From: Archaeoglobaceae archaeon
GTDB taxonomy: Archaea > Halobacteriota > Archaeoglobi > Archaeoglobales > Archaeoglobaceae
NCBI GenBank assembly: GCA_026988525.1
Contig: JALSLC010000016.1
Location: 1 to 53,405 of the forward strand
Direction of reading: 5' to 3'
DNA: 53,405 bases
The notes under the pieces are model-generated. The model was not told the DNA's origin and searched no databases. It saw nothing but the letters and a program-made list of their open reading frames with translations. The translations under genes and the position numbers were made by a program. Positions 21,760-29,165 of the stretch are shown here, piece by piece. Each line of letters starts with the position of its first letter. The first letter of the stretch is position 1.

Positions 21760-23640
21760 TTACCAGCCTCCAGCTCCACCTCCTCCAAATCCACCTCCTC
21801 CTCCAAATCCACCGCCAAATCCACCTCCAAAGCTACTGCCTGTATCTTTGGATGACAAAACTGTGGAATGGAAAGTATGGAATCCTAAGAATATATCACT
21901 GTAGTTTGTGTCAAATTTAATGTCAAAAGCCTTCATAGCCTTTACAACTTTTTCACCAACACCCAAGGCTGTTCCATAGACTAACCATTCCTGCCACATT
22001 ACTAAATCTTCCGGGGCATATTTCTTTATCATAGCCATATCCGATAGAAATCTTGTAAAAGCTCTCCACTGCAACCTTTCCTCATATTCTCTATCCTTCC
22101 ACCTCCCAAAAAGCTGAGCAGGAACCATAAAACAAGCTAAACTCTCGTAAAAAGCAGATAATCCCATTAATGCAGTAATTTGCTGAGAATAAATAAAGCC
22201 TAAAACAGCACCAGATGTAGCAACTAACAGACTGAATGCTAAAAGCTTGTATAGAGCTTTTTTACCAGAAGTATCTATAAATTCTCTTTCTACGCTTTTT
22301 CTGAGTTTTATCAAATCACGATCAACCATAAGCATTAAGTTATTAAGTTCAATCGCTTCTTTCAAACCAACTATCTTAGATGCTAGATCTTTTGTTTTTT
22401 TAAGATTTGCTGTATCAAAGACTCCATCCTCAGAGTTCTTTTTAATGTAATTGAATACTCTTCTCTCATACTCATCATCCAGTTCTTTTTCTTTGATAAC
22501 TTTAATTCTCAAGTCTTTTTTAGAATTGCCGTACGTCTCTAACTTAATAAGACTCATCCTCTCCAAATTGAGTAAAGTAGCAAAGAAACCATCAGGATCG
22601 AAATTGAATGCATCACCTTTAAAAACCAAGTTAACAATCCAAGGTTTTCTTTCTTTATTTGGTACGTAGCTCAAAAATTTAGGAACTGTTACGCTTATTT
22701 CCGAACCGTACTTCATATAAATGTAGTAAATTATTCCGGGAATTACAAGAACCAATAGTACGTAAACGTAACTAATATCTTTAATAATTTCCATTTTCAG
22801 TTTATAAAATTTGTTAGCAGATATAGTTTTAGCTTGAACATCACTTACCTTTTCTGTGTAACCATAAACTGGTTTAGTTAGAACCATCTCAACTTCTATC
22901 AATCCGTTTTCAGGACTTTTACCGGTTATTTCCCATCCGTAATTTGTTCTCACAACTTTTGAATTTGGAAAGTGTACAAACAACTCTTTTATACTTCTTT
23001 GGGGATCCAATATCTTTAAAAATACGTTGTTATATGGAACGTGTTTGCTCGCTAACTTTATGTTTACATGGTATAGCTTACCATCAGTTTGAACTGGAGG
23101 GAATATTTCAAAGCTATACTTGACTTCGTAATTACCCGGACTGAAATGGTACGAATTTACTATACCAATTTCGTTTTTACTTGCATGATCTCTTATAAGC
23201 GTTCTTAGGTGATTTACATCGTAGGCATTCCACAGATATATGTGTCCAAAGTTGTCCACTGCATATTCAGGATAATTACTACTAATCCTAAGCAAAGTGT
23301 AATGTGGTTTACTATAACTACTCTGAACAAAGAGTGGGGCATTAAACCTTCTGTAAAGAGCCCTATACTTAGAAGTGTGTACATGGTAAACGTAGTCCTC
23401 CGTCAAGTAAAGATGAGGGCCAACTTTTAGAGTAGCAGAATAATCAGCCGTTAAAGGATTTAAATGTTCGCTAATTAAATTTATATGAAAATAAGAAAAC
23501 AAAAAAGCAAGTAAAATAATAGCTGATATACATAAAAAAAGAGATACCAGCTGTCCCTTTTCCTCAAGTTTTCTTGAAATTGCAAATAGACTTATTAATG
23601 GTACTACAGCGAATAAAGAAAATATAAACAAAGAAGACAT
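21760..23640 (-). CDS. DUF2207-type membrane protein with glycine-rich tail
   Basis: This is a 626-residue protein. Two N-terminal hydrophobic segments (about 3-20 and 32-50) are followed by an extracytoplasmic beta-rich domain to about 290, a membrane helix near 292-312 and a cytoplasmic region of charged helices. A helix pair lies near 462-500, and the C-terminal tail is built of GGGFGGG units. This layout matches the DUF2207 family. In many genomes such genes sit beside LemA, as here, where lemA precedes it by 10 bases. Biochemical function is unknown; a role in envelope maintenance is inferred from the partnership. The gene ends 2 bases from the convergent end of proC. Confidence 0.85.
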   Translation of the reverse strand: MSSLFIFSLFAVVPLISLFAISRKLEEKGQLVSLFLCISAIILLAFLFSYFHINLISEHLNPLTADYSATLKVGPHLYLTEDYVYHVHTSKYRALYRRFNAPLFVQSSYSKPHYTLLRISSNYPEYAVDNFGHIYLWNAYDVNHLRTLIRDHASKNEIGIVNSYHFSPGNYEVKYSFEIFPPVQTDGKLYHVNIKLASKHVPYNNVFLKILDPQRSIKELFVHFPNSKVVRTNYGWEITGKSPENGLIEVEMVLTKPVYGYTEKVSDVQAKTISANKFYKLKMEIIKDISYVYVLLVLVIPGIIYYIYMKYGSEISVTVPKFLSYVPNKERKPWIVNLVFKGDAFNFDPDGFFATLLNLERMSLIKLETYGNSKKDLRIKVIKEKELDDEYERRVFNYIKKNSEDGVFDTANLKKTKDLASKIVGLKEAIELNNLMLMVDRDLIKLRKSVEREFIDTSGKKALYKLLAFSLLVATSGAVLGFIYSQQITALMGLSAFYESLACFMVPAQLFGRWKDREYEERLQWRAFTRFLSDMAMIKKYAPEDLVMWQEWLVYGTALGVGEKVVKAMKAFDIKFDTNYSDIFLGFHTFHSTVLSSKDTGSSFGGGFGGGFGGGGGFGGGGAGGW

Positions 23641-23650
23641 AATTTATCAC

Positions 23651-24232
23651 CTAAATGTTCCAATTAAGTTCAGGTCTCCTCTCTACTGCCTCCTCGAAGT
23701 GCAAGTATTCAAGCTTTTTTAATCCCATAAGTCTGGCAATTATGCTGTCCGGAATTATGTCCATTCTTGTATTGTATTCTTGAACTACGTTGTTGTAGGT
23801 ATATCTCAAGCGAGCAATTTCATCTTCAACAGACTTAGCAGAACTCATAAGTTCTTGTACAACACTTGAAGTTTTAAGCTCAGGATAGTTTTCAACGCTA
23901 ACTATTATGTTTCCAAGTATTCCTCTTGTTTCTGCATCTATTTTTTGTAGATCTTGAGGAGTTGACGCTTTCATAACTTCAGTTCTCATCTTAGTCACTC
24001 TTTCAAAAGTGTCTCTCTCGTATCTCGCGTAACTCTTAACAGATTCAAGCAATTCACTTAGCAAATCAAGTCTTTTCTTCATAGCTACTTTTATTTGGTT
24101 AAAAGTTGCTTCAGCCCCGTTTTTAAGTTGCTGAAACCTGTTGTATATTCCAGCGACTATAAAAGCAATTATTATAATAAATACTGCTACTAAAGCTAAA
24201 AGAGCCAAAGTAATTATACTACTTAAGCCCAT
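23651..24232 (-). CDS. lemA: LemA family protein
   Basis: This 193-residue protein has one N-terminal membrane helix (about 5-30) and a long coiled helical bundle. LemA signatures are present: IYNRFQQLKNGAEATFNQIKV, YARYERDTFERVTKMR and the YNNVVQEYNTRMDIIPDSIIA block near residue 145-165. The family's molecular role is unresolved but it is often linked with HtpX or DUF2207 proteins; htpX lies about 3 kb away. It is probably co-transcribed with the DUF2207 gene. Confidence 0.92.
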   Translation of the reverse strand: MGLSSIITLALLALVAVFIIIIAFIVAGIYNRFQQLKNGAEATFNQIKVAMKKRLDLLSELLESVKSYARYERDTFERVTKMRTEVMKASTPQDLQKIDAETRGILGNIIVSVENYPELKTSSVVQELMSSAKSVEDEIARLRYTYNNVVQEYNTRMDIIPDSIIARLMGLKKLEYLHFEEAVERRPELNWNI

Positions 24233-25742: not shown

Positions 25743-26407
25743 GGCTCTACTACCGTACCAATTTCACCATAAATTGCTTTTTCTATGTTTTTTGGTTCAC
25801 CTTTAAAAATTATAGTTTTTATACCACTCCTCTCTACTATTTTTGCGGCAAGAATATCTAAAACATTGCTACTTCCAGCTTTTACTTCCCCCTTAGACAC
25901 GATCTCCACTAATTCCTTAGCTTTAATTCTCCTATAAAATATAGCATTTGGATTTTTTTTCGGATCTTCAGAATAAACACCATCAACAGCCGTTGCATTA
26001 AGTAATAAATCTGCTCCTACGTATTCAGCTAAGAGGGCTGCTGTAGCATCAGTAGTATGTCCGGGAAATGTGCCCCCCATTACAACAATATTCCAAAGCT
26101 TAGATAATTCTAAGGCTCTTTCAAATGTATCTGGGACTTCCTTAGGAGATGAGTTGAGCATAGATGAGAACAAAAGAGCGTTGAGCTTAGTAACTCTAAT
26201 CCCAATTAAATCGCATAGAACATCATTAGCCCCAGAATTTTTTGCAATTTTTATGTAGTCTCTTGCAACTTTTCCCCCTCCAACAACAACAAATATCTTT
26301 TTATTTTTGGCTATTTTTTCTAATTCTACTGCAAAATCCTTCATCATTCTGCATTCTGGGAAATCTTTCATTAGCACAGATCCGCCAAGAGAGATTACTA
26401 TTTTCAT
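25739..26407 (-). CDS. pyrH: UMP kinase (archaeal PyrH)
   Basis: This 222-residue amino-acid-kinase-fold enzyme phosphorylates UMP to UDP. It has ISLGGSV at the N-terminus, VVGGGKVARDYI near residue 41, GGTFPGHTTDATAALLAE near 113, a nucleotide-binding region DGVYSEDPKKNP and a C-terminal GTVV. The short archaeal form matches in length. It overlaps the transporter gene before it and the DHPS-like gene after it by 4 bases each. Confidence 0.94.
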   Translation of the reverse strand: MKIVISLGGSVLMKDFPECRMMKDFAVELEKIAKNKKIFVVVGGGKVARDYIKIAKNSGANDVLCDLIGIRVTKLNALLFSSMLNSSPKEVPDTFERALELSKLWNIVVMGGTFPGHTTDATAALLAEYVGADLLLNATAVDGVYSEDPKKNPNAIFYRRIKAKELVEIVSKGEVKAGSSNVLDILAAKIVERSGIKTIIFKGEPKNIEKAIYGEIGTVVEP

Positions 26408-27411
26408 GTTTTTTGCTTAACCTTCGCAGCTAAATTTTTACCGGTGTAGTGAGTATAAACAGCTGTTAATACCGCAACTAAGGTAGGCGCTATAAAAAAA
26501 CCTGCAGCACCTCCAGCCATGGCTCCTCCAATAAAAGACAAAAGAATTAAAAGAGGATGTATTTTGCTCGCATAACCCAAGAAGTGAGGTCTTAAAAACA
26601 ATTCAGGTAATATATACAGCAGTATAATTCCGGTTAACAAAAACCATGCTGAAAGTATTATACTTTTTGTTGCAAGAAAAGCCGCAACAGGAAGTATGAC
26701 CATCCATTCTGCAAAAATTGGGATTAAAGCAGCAAGAAACATAAGACCGCTAAGAATAGGAATGTACGGCACATCAAATACCATAAAGTATGGTATACTC
26801 AACAGACCAACAAAAATTGCAAATGCAAAATTTCCAAACCAAAGAGAAATTAAAGTTTCGTCTATCTCCTTCAAAAGTTTTTCTAAATCTTCTGTATATT
26901 CCTCCGGCAAAACTGAAAGTATTGCTTTAACTAACCTATCACCATCACACAAAGCATAAAAACAAACTATTGCAGATATTAAAAAGTTCATAAAAAATGT
27001 TACAGTTTTAATAGTCACATCTAAAGCAGAAACTTTCAGATAGTTTCTTATATAAGTTTCAAAATAAGGAATGGATGAAATTATATAGTTACTGTAATTT
27101 TCAGGTATGTTTGCACTTTTCATAACGCGGATAAGTGAAGAAATTAGCTCTTTTTGATGAGTTAAAATATAGATTAGCTGATTCAATCCCTGAAAAATAC
27201 CGTAAAACATCAGAAAAGAAATTGGAAGCAATATTGTCATTGTAGATATAGCACTTGAAACTAAATTACCCAATCTCAACCTATTTTTTATTGGTTTTGC
27301 AACATAAGCAAAAACTATACCCATAACTATTCCATTTATCAAAGGTGAAAAGTAGTAAAATACAAACAACACAAGTAAAAATAAAATTACTAAAAAAAGT
27401 TTTTTCTTCAT
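26404..27411 (-). CDS. AI-2E/UPF0118 family membrane transporter
   Basis: This 335-residue protein has about eight membrane helices arranged as in the AI-2E exporter family: two N-terminal helices, a soluble segment around 85-140 and a conserved C-terminal block with PILSGLMFLAALIPIFAEW, LRPHFLG and HPLLILLSFIGG. Substrates of archaeal members are unknown; ion or small-metabolite efflux is possible. Its ATG overlaps the stop of the actin-like gene (TAATG), so the two are translationally coupled. Confidence 0.87.
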   Translation of the reverse strand: MKKKLFLVILFLLVLFVFYYFSPLINGIVMGIVFAYVAKPIKNRLRLGNLVSSAISTMTILLPISFLMFYGIFQGLNQLIYILTHQKELISSLIRVMKSANIPENYSNYIISSIPYFETYIRNYLKVSALDVTIKTVTFFMNFLISAIVCFYALCDGDRLVKAILSVLPEEYTEDLEKLLKEIDETLISLWFGNFAFAIFVGLLSIPYFMVFDVPYIPILSGLMFLAALIPIFAEWMVILPVAAFLATKSIILSAWFLLTGIILLYILPELFLRPHFLGYASKIHPLLILLSFIGGAMAGGAAGFFIAPTLVAVLTAVYTHYTGKNLAAKVKQKT

Positions 27412-28388
27412 TAACTTTCTCTTGTTTTAGCAGCTATAAGACAACCTCTCGCAACACTAAAGAGGGGGTCTCTTGCAACTCTTATCTCGGATACGTTTAC
27501 AGGAAGTCCAATTTCACTTAATCTTTCTTCAAACAAAGACTTGAATCCCTTTGGTTTTGACGTTCCTCCTGCCAACACAACTGGAAATTCTACTGCTGGG
27601 GGAGTTACCTCAGCTAATTTCCTTGCAAGAGTTTCAACTATATTGGAGATTAGTTGATCATAGTATATTGCCAAAGCTCCTTCAACACTTCCAAGCTCTA
27701 CTTCTTTTTTCAATTCAAAACCACTTTCTTTTATTGCACAAACTTGCTCCCTGGACATACCAGTAGCTTTGGCAACATTTTCATCAATCCAATCACCGCC
27801 CTTGGCTATGCTAAAGGACACTATAGGTGCAGCAAAGTATGCTGCAGTAACGTTTGTCATTCCAGCCCCAAAACTAACGCCTATCCCAGTAAAGCTTGTA
27901 TCAGCAAGTTCAGAATAAACTACAGCTAAACCTTCATCTATTACGTAAGGTGTATAACCTATTTTCTTTATTAAAGCCTCCATTGTTTTTCTATGATACA
28001 ATACTTCAATATCGGAATCTATTGGTTTTGCGGGAGAAGATATACACACTATCTCTCCTGCATATTCTGGAGAACCTACTACTTTTTCTATTAGCAACTT
28101 TATTATTGGAATAGCTTCTTTTTCCTCAGGACTTAGAACACCAGATTTCATTGGCCTCCTTGTACTTTTCTTAAAAACGGTAGCAAACCTGAGAGCGTCA
28201 TCTCCAAGCACATATATTTTGTTTCCTTTTATAACATAAGCAACTCTTGCATTATCAAGCATCATTTTTGTCATGTCGTTATAATCGAGCTCAAGAAATG
28301 CATTTCTCTGCTGGACAAAAACGATTTCATCTCCTTCCATTTCAGAACATATTATGTTCATAGTACCTACATCTAACCCCTTAGACAC
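27411..28388 (-). CDS. Actin/MreB-like ATPase (archaeal actin homologue)
   Basis: This protein of about 325 residues has the actin/Hsp70-fold signature: phosphate-1 loop GLDVGTMN near residue 5, a connect region GYTPYVIDEGLAVVYSEL near 145, phosphate-2 GVSFGAGMTNVTAAYF near 168 and adenosine motif VVLAGGTSKPKGF near 278. It lacks Hsp70's substrate-binding domain, so it resembles a filament-forming actin homologue or ParM/MreB-like protein. I chose GTG at 28388 because GGAGGTG lies six bases upstream; GTG at 28397 is an alternative. The adjacent membrane protein gene 13 bases upstream may be an anchor. Whether it polymerises is unknown. Confidence 0.8.
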   Translation of the reverse strand: MSKGLDVGTMNIICSEMEGDEIVFVQQRNAFLELDYNDMTKMMLDNARVAYVIKGNKIYVLGDDALRFATVFKKSTRRPMKSGVLSPEEKEAIPIIKLLIEKVVGSPEYAGEIVCISSPAKPIDSDIEVLYHRKTMEALIKKIGYTPYVIDEGLAVVYSELADTSFTGIGVSFGAGMTNVTAAYFAAPIVSFSIAKGGDWIDENVAKATGMSREQVCAIKESGFELKKEVELGSVEGALAIYYDQLISNIVETLARKLAEVTPPAVEFPVVLAGGTSKPKGFKSLFEERLSEIGLPVNVSEIRVARDPLFSVARGCLIAAKTRES

Positions 28389-28400
28389 GAAAACCACCTC

Positions 28401-29165
28401 CTAAGATAAGCCTTCACCCGGACTTTTACCTTTTATCTTACTTTCTTCTATCATTTTAAGCACTCTTGCCGCATTATCTACTTCACAAACCTCCTTTTTA
28501 GCAACTCTTCTCCCACCATTTCTCAACATTCTAAGTTTTTCCGCTTCTGGTACAGAATCTTTTACTCTAACTACATTTCCTCTATACTCCCCATCTTTAA
28601 GGGCCGAACCCACTAAGAAATCTCCTTTTGGTTCAATAATCTCTATATCGAGAACTTTGTCAAAATCAGGTTCTATTAGCTTAGCTTCTTCAATTTCTAT
28701 ATTTTCCTCAATCTTCTTTTTCAGTTTTTTCTTCTCAACATAACTTGTTTCTCTTTTTATTTCAATACCCGGTGCTTTTTCAAGTAACCTTAAAACAGCC
28801 TCAGCAAAAGAACTGCTAAAAAATAAAACTAAGCCCAATGCATAAAGCAATGCAACATAGACAATTTGTGGATAGTACCAGTATTCAGGATACATAAGAA
28901 CAAATAAAACTACTGCGAGAGTAGTAAGTGCAAAAGCAGCAATAGTAGCTGGTTTATACCTCTTAAAACCATACATAGCATTTACTCCGTAGAGTGCCAT
29001 TGGAATAGCCAAACCAATTATTACACCTACTATCTCTATTTCGGTAGGGTTGGAGTACCTATTTATCTGAAAAATTGCTATTAGAGATAATCCAATGACT
29101 ATTAAGAAAACGCCAGCTGCAAAAATTAGTGAAGGTAGATAGTACTCTCTGTCCCGCCGTCCCAT
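28401..29165 (-). CDS. Membrane protein with charged cytoplasmic tail, partner of actin-like gene
   Basis: The first ~130 residues hold four to six hydrophobic helices. The last ~115 are soluble and charged, beginning with a coiled-coil-prone KKKLKKKIEENIEIEEAK stretch and ending in a helix DNAARVLKMIEESK. There is no enzymatic motif. It is first in the operon with the actin-like ATPase and ends 13 bases before it. I recall haloarchaeal actin-homologue genes having a similar membrane-protein neighbour (annotated DUF7139), but cannot verify it here. A membrane anchor or nucleator for filaments is an inference from position and architecture. Confidence 0.65.
   Translation of the reverse strand: MGRRDREYYLPSLIFAAGVFLIVIGLSLIAIFQINRYSNPTEIEIVGVIIGLAIPMALYGVNAMYGFKRYKPATIAAFALTTLAVVLFVLMYPEYWYYPQIVYVALLYALGLVLFFSSSFAEAVLRLLEKAPGIEIKRETSYVEKKKLKKKIEENIEIEEAKLIEPDFDKVLDIEIIEPKGDFLVGSALKDGEYRGNVVRVKDSVPEAEKLRMLRNGGRRVAKKEVCEVDNAARVLKMIEESKIKGKSPGEGLS

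Follow-up and report, generated by a model that had tools for sequence, protein, structure and literature searches.

Our study identified volactin in an archaeon of a thermophile lineage, encoded directly beside a membrane protein of the DUF7139 family. We propose, with a probability of about 70%, that the two constitute a two-gene archaeal module in which DUF7139 provides the membrane anchor for volactin filaments and may also nucleate or cap them. DUF7139 accompanies volactin in nearly every archaeal volactin genome, which makes it the leading candidate for the membrane tie of volactin. The window, that is, the whole 53,405-nucleotide stretch of Archaeoglobaceae DNA analyzed here, carries both genes on the minus strand: the volactin gene at 27411..28388 and the partner gene at 28401..29165. 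A membrane-anchored filament system had been offered as a hypothesis by an earlier sequence-only reading of this locus, and the volactin fold and the co-conserved membrane partner described below support it.

Conservation of the volactin-DUF7139 pair

The co-occurrence of the two genes was determined in 393 genomes across the phylum Halobacteriota, where a volactin was counted when full-length. Partners were identified with a profile (A2) made from volactin neighbours, with the window sequence as one of its rows, which favours the partner subtype by design and was then run on whole genomes. Volactin is present in 88 of the 393 genomes and the partner-type DUF7139 in 87 of those 88 (counts uncorrected for shared ancestry), while the A2 profile found no partner-type DUF7139 in any of the 305 volactin-free genomes. 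A Fisher value calculated for this association likewise takes no account of ancestry and is not to be read as a probability. The partner matches lie between E 1e-95 and 1e-48, and no other match, whatever the genome, is better than 3e-26. The sole volactin genome without a partner is G308, which is 59% complete and in which the contig starts 263 bases before the volactin gene. Seven genera (g6, g11, g47, g49, g60, g64, and g94) are mixed for volactin presence, and the partner is concordant in all of them.

The partner lies directly upstream of volactin on the same strand in 76 of the 88 genomes, with a gap between matches of -1 to 307 bases. The 12 non-adjacent genomes comprise nine of one haloarchaeal genus, in which the two genes are separated, together with G284, G377 (in which volactin sits at the end of one contig and the partner on a different one), and G308; 11 of the 12 encode the partner elsewhere. 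In a survey of 80 named loci, 72 had DUF7139 close to volactin, and the runner-up neighbour family occurred in 14, all of them haloarchaeal.

We also analyzed 194 genomes from the phylum of a Thermoplasmatota metagenome-assembled genome (MAG). Volactin is present in 17 of them, 15 of which have a DUF7139 partner at E 1e-20 or better, a threshold reached in none of the 177 volactin-free genomes; a sixteenth pair occurs in G463, where the partner is directly downstream with E 2.8e-20. The partner thus adjoins volactin in 16 of the 17 genomes, the exception being G412, which has a divergent volactin copy only. The order of the pair is mostly partner upstream, changing to downstream in G463, G548, and G422 and to a divergent arrangement in G431 and G447. 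The adjacency has been kept despite rearrangement, which therefore favours function over passive inheritance. Divergent volactins without a partner were also observed in this phylum (G393:C47:6813-7778 (L273) and G412:C18:159-1121 (L266)), with neighbours that include NUDIX and glycosyltransferase genes. Altogether the pair is kept across Archaeoglobi, Methanosarcinales, ANME-1, Thermoplasmatota, and Haloarchaea, which bears out the expectation that it would be co-conserved in relatives.

Two other associations were considered and rejected. The Pfam DUF7139 model alone matches many volactin-free genomes, as if DUF7139 were simply a common haloarchaeal gene with no connection to volactin; those matches that we examined, and the second copies carried by volactin genomes, belong to other subtypes with different architectures and without the partner tail. 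Salactin was evaluated as the true partner of DUF7139 and discarded, since it occurs in volactin-free genomes too and is missing from several volactin genomes; its distribution differs, and therefore DUF7139 tracks volactin and not actins generally. The genome of the window itself encodes a salactin on another contig (G000:C38:14474-15451, E 1.4e-99), so that two distinct actin-fold families are present in one genome.

Topology and tail of the DUF7139 partner

The partner (254 aa) matches the DUF7139 model PF23600 with 48.1 bits (cut-off 30; E 1.2e-12) over residues 3-128, and it matches the A2 profile full-length, including the tail blocks (positions 13-264 of 274, E 4.8e-77). Its AlphaFold2 model contains four transmembrane helices in residues 3-130 (28776..29159, minus strand; pLDDT mostly above 90), in line with the hydropathy segments 13-31, 43-61, 73-91, and 101-119. 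Positive charges are found in the N-terminus and in the 62-72 loop, and the remaining two loops are almost uncharged; because of this charge pattern, an N-in/C-in topology fits the protein. A Foldseek search with the model returned nothing below E 0.1.

The remaining residues 131-254 (28404..28775, minus strand) form a predicted cytoplasmic tail of about 124 residues, with 28 K/R and 27 D/E. The sequence-only reading had described this tail as charged and coiled-coil-like: the charge is confirmed, and the model shows instead a mostly disordered chain (pLDDT about 42-69) with short helices at low confidence and no continuous coiled coil. An amphipathic-helix test on these low-confidence helices was not significant. 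Across 62 DUF7139 homologues the conservation profile contains three conserved blocks on the minus strand: block 1, with consensus YTDEEIERDIEE, at residues about 147-158 (28692..28727); block 2 (28515..28571), in which Leu211 is kept in 98% of the sequences; and block 3, VDxxxxxL (28440..28481), which includes the invariant Leu236. Such a pattern would suit a disordered tether that carries binding motifs. The window partner shares only about 20% identity overall with haloarchaeal partners, whereas the volactins share 54%; such fast evolution of the partner would be unsurprising in a tether.

Outside the pair, the four-helix module (L222-L233 and L238-L241) is joined to CHAD in Methanosarcinaceae, to a type II/IV secretion ATPase (T2SSE) in one Archaeoglobaceae genome, and to DUF1508 repeats or DUF7140 in haloarchaea. 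Its fusion to CHAD, to a secretion ATPase, and to DUF1508 suggests, at the level of domain architecture, that it may be a generic membrane-tethering module.

We therefore propose the following mechanism. Volactin would act as an ATP-dependent actin-fold filament protein, filament formation being presumed to extend to Archaeoglobi, and the long charged tail of DUF7139 would extend from the four-helix membrane part into the cytoplasm. The tail would bind volactin, probably through an acidic block close to residue 150 together with two short helices, one around Leu211 and one around Leu236, and this binding would leave the filaments anchored, perhaps nucleated or capped, at the membrane. The family, fold, topology, co-occurrence, and adjacency come from the computation, and we infer that binding is direct, that attachment is at the tip of the filament and not at its side, and that the role extends to Archaeoglobi. 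Weighing against the proposal are the low-confidence, not significantly amphipathic tail helices, the lack of a structural match for the DUF7139 fold, viral volactins that have no partner, and the haloarchaeal genus in which the two genes are apart. A broader version of this proposal, to which we give slightly better than even odds, is that DUF7139 is a universal anchor and nucleator of archaeal volactin, and that the pair is an actin-membrane system of two components, ancient in Halobacteriota and Thermoplasmatota, whose four-helix module archaea also use to tether CHAD, the secretion ATPase, and DUF1508 repeats.

It is important to consider that DUF7139 could instead be a membrane sensor or regulator that controls volactin polymerization by signalling, for example, the tension of the membrane or the osmotic state, without being a mechanical anchor. 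Conserved aromatics of the four-helix core (W96, Y108, and F88) and a conserved loop predicted to lie outside (YPxxWxYP) hint at recognition in the membrane or beyond it, and this module also occurs in fusions with further effectors, including CHAD and the secretion ATPase. The protein is, however, without a known sensor domain, and such diverse fusions fit a plain tether equally well, so we consider a sensor unlikely.

Identification of volactin and its fold

The sequence-only reading had called the neighbouring protein an actin-like ATPase and a candidate for the cytoskeleton. The actin fold is borne out, and the label proved too weak: the protein is volactin outright, matching Pfam Volactin (PF25216) with 444 bits (cut-off 35; E 4.4e-133) over residues 5-323 of the 328 in its longest open reading frame. 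It is 54% identical to the volactin of Haloferax gibbonsii over 325 aa with one single-residue gap, and its closest named relatives, at 96-99% identity, belong to Archaeoglobaceae and Archaeoglobus MAGs. The family models of salactin (PF25229; 14.5 bits, cut-off 27.1), crenactin (14.3 bits, cut-off 630), and FtsA (19.2 bits, cut-off 31.8) all scored this protein under their cut-offs; that of MreB_Mbl was passed with 44 bits, as is expected of a related family.

All three actin-fold nucleotide motifs recognized by the sequence-only reading are intact and sit in invariant columns among archaeal and viral relatives. These are, on the minus strand, the phosphate-1 motif GLDVGTMNI (28353..28379), kept across 41 volactins including viral ones; the phosphate-2 motif TGIGVSFGAGMTNV (27849..27890), with invariant T, G, S, G, G, and N; and the adenosine motif around LAGGTSKPKGF (27543..27584), with two invariant Gly.

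An AlphaFold2 model built from 41 aligned relatives (pLDDT 92.0, pTM 0.89) has a MamK/MreB-like topology along its whole length and is not Hsp70-like. Its best matches in the PDB are BeeR (TM 0.74), MamK (TM 0.73), and MreB (0.62-0.71, mostly 0.65-0.71), and FtsA scores lower (TM 0.56-0.59); therefore, the structural objection that the protein might turn out to be Hsp70- or FtsA-like falls away. These matches also bear on whether volactin in Archaeoglobi might be a non-filamentous, ATP-switch subunit of a membrane complex, comparable to PilM or FtsA-like proteins. PilM and EutJ do match the model at lower scores, but the filament formers MamK, MreB, and BeeR have the higher TM-scores and the Haloferax orthologue makes filaments in cells (PMC10869688), which leaves a non-filamentous role highly improbable.

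Some haloarchaea (L210-L216, e.g. L212:4378-7938) encode a further protein with a volactin domain (775-1187 aa), in which this domain is followed by a coiled coil of several hundred residues and C-terminal transmembrane helices. The L212 paralogue, the copy that we read, has a degenerate phosphate-2 motif, which suggests a putative non-catalytic actin joined to its own anchor; a fusion of this kind is in keeping with the anchoring proposed above. More than 20 viral contigs (L083-L089, L242-L264 from IMG/VR; uncultured huge phages LR745208.1 and LR756511.1) likewise encode volactin-family proteins, with 35-38% identity to the window volactin; in the viral contigs examined, the DUF7139 partner is absent beside them. 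In one viral group the genes just before volactin encode a head protease resembling ClpP and a soluble protein of coiled-coil-like character. The volactin tree is unrooted with long branches, which limits it as a guide to the origin of the viral copies.

Gene layout and probable translational coupling

Three minus-strand genes follow one another in a near gapless series: the DUF7139 gene (28401-29165), volactin (27411-28388), and a gene for an AI-2E family membrane protein (26404..27411; PF01594, E 2.1e-54). The first two open reading frames had been delimited correctly by the sequence-only reading, including the length of 325 residues for volactin. The longest volactin open reading frame would start at GTG 28397 (328 aa), but this codon lies within a perfect Shine-Dalgarno sequence, AGGAGGTGG (28394..28402, minus strand), and translation from GTG 28388 gives the N-terminus MSKGLDVGTMN, with which relatives align as MAKGLDVGTMN; for these two reasons, GTG 28388 is the best start, and the gene ends with TAA. 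Direct reading shows that AGGAGGTGG also overlaps the membrane-protein gene and takes in its TAG stop, and therefore translational coupling of the two genes is very likely, as judged from the sequence arrangement.

The volactin stop and the AI-2E start share one base in the overlap TAATG (27409-27413), so the earlier description of a coupled AI-2E-type gene in the same operon holds as regards family and overlap; its membership in the module was rejected, since every genome examined from the window's genus has AI-2E downstream of volactin, whereas it was absent from that position in the family's other genera and in each further lineage that we examined. That all three genes form one functional unit is accordingly scarcely credible, despite the TAATG overlap and the retention of the cluster throughout the examined genomes of the genus. 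Elsewhere in the window (21760-24232, minus strand), a LemA family protein is encoded beside a membrane protein of 626 aa whose tail is rich in GGGFGG, which makes the two another candidate membrane pair.

Comparison with known systems

Volactin of Haloferax volcanii has been reported to form dynamic filaments that span the cytoplasm, are membrane-bound at their tips, and contribute to cell shape, and its authors propose volactin-binding factors without naming them (PMC10869688). Anchoring by DUF7139 would explain these tip-anchored filaments. That paper also counts hvo_2013-hvo_2020 among three regions of suspected shape genes, and the DUF7139 neighbour may already be noted in its supplement (PMC10869688). 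Our open-literature search found no paper that describes DUF7139 and none that names the Haloferax locus tags flanking HVO_2015. DUF7139 thus provides one named candidate gene for the membrane grip of volactin, being present in 87 of 88 volactin genomes of one phylum and beside volactin even after reordering in a second.

Volactin was known so far from salt-loving archaea; its gene is present in Archaeoglobi (here in a heat-loving archaeon), ANME-1, Methanosarcinaceae, and Thermoplasmatota, which shows that this cytoskeleton is not a halophile speciality. The window protein and that of H. volcanii (VolA, HVO_2015, PF25216) share full-length homology and the same nucleotide motifs, the haloarchaeal members being 50-54% identical to it. 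The comparable pairing near haloarchaeal volactin mentioned in the sequence-only reading proved real, since the same DUF7139 gene lies immediately upstream of volactin in Haloferax loci. The haloarchaeal proteins have an acidic C-terminal extension, whereas the Archaeoglobi protein does not. The downstream gene also differs, being AI-2E in the window and a small open reading frame followed by CetZ in Haloferax. This tubulin-like CetZ gene is two genes downstream of volactin (L135:7616-8923 and other loci), and a CetZ homologue occurs within about 5 kb of volactin in the ANME-1 loci L109 and L110.

Among other archaeal actins, salactin (PF25229) is likewise an actin-fold filament protein, but it is a separate family with another distribution and is unpaired with DUF7139. 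Crenactin and the arcadins are also an archaeal actin with gene-neighbourhood partners; the window protein has no significant match to the crenactin family, and no arcadin-like partner was seen. In bacteria, MreB is bound by the membrane protein RodZ, and MreB/RodZ and MamK offer the closest solved folds to volactin (the matches to the model include PDB 2wus), yet they represent a different family, and no sequence relation was found between RodZ and DUF7139. Volactin also differs from bacterial MreB and MamK in its predicted lack of an N-terminal membrane helix, since the modelled chain begins at its first strand (residue 5).
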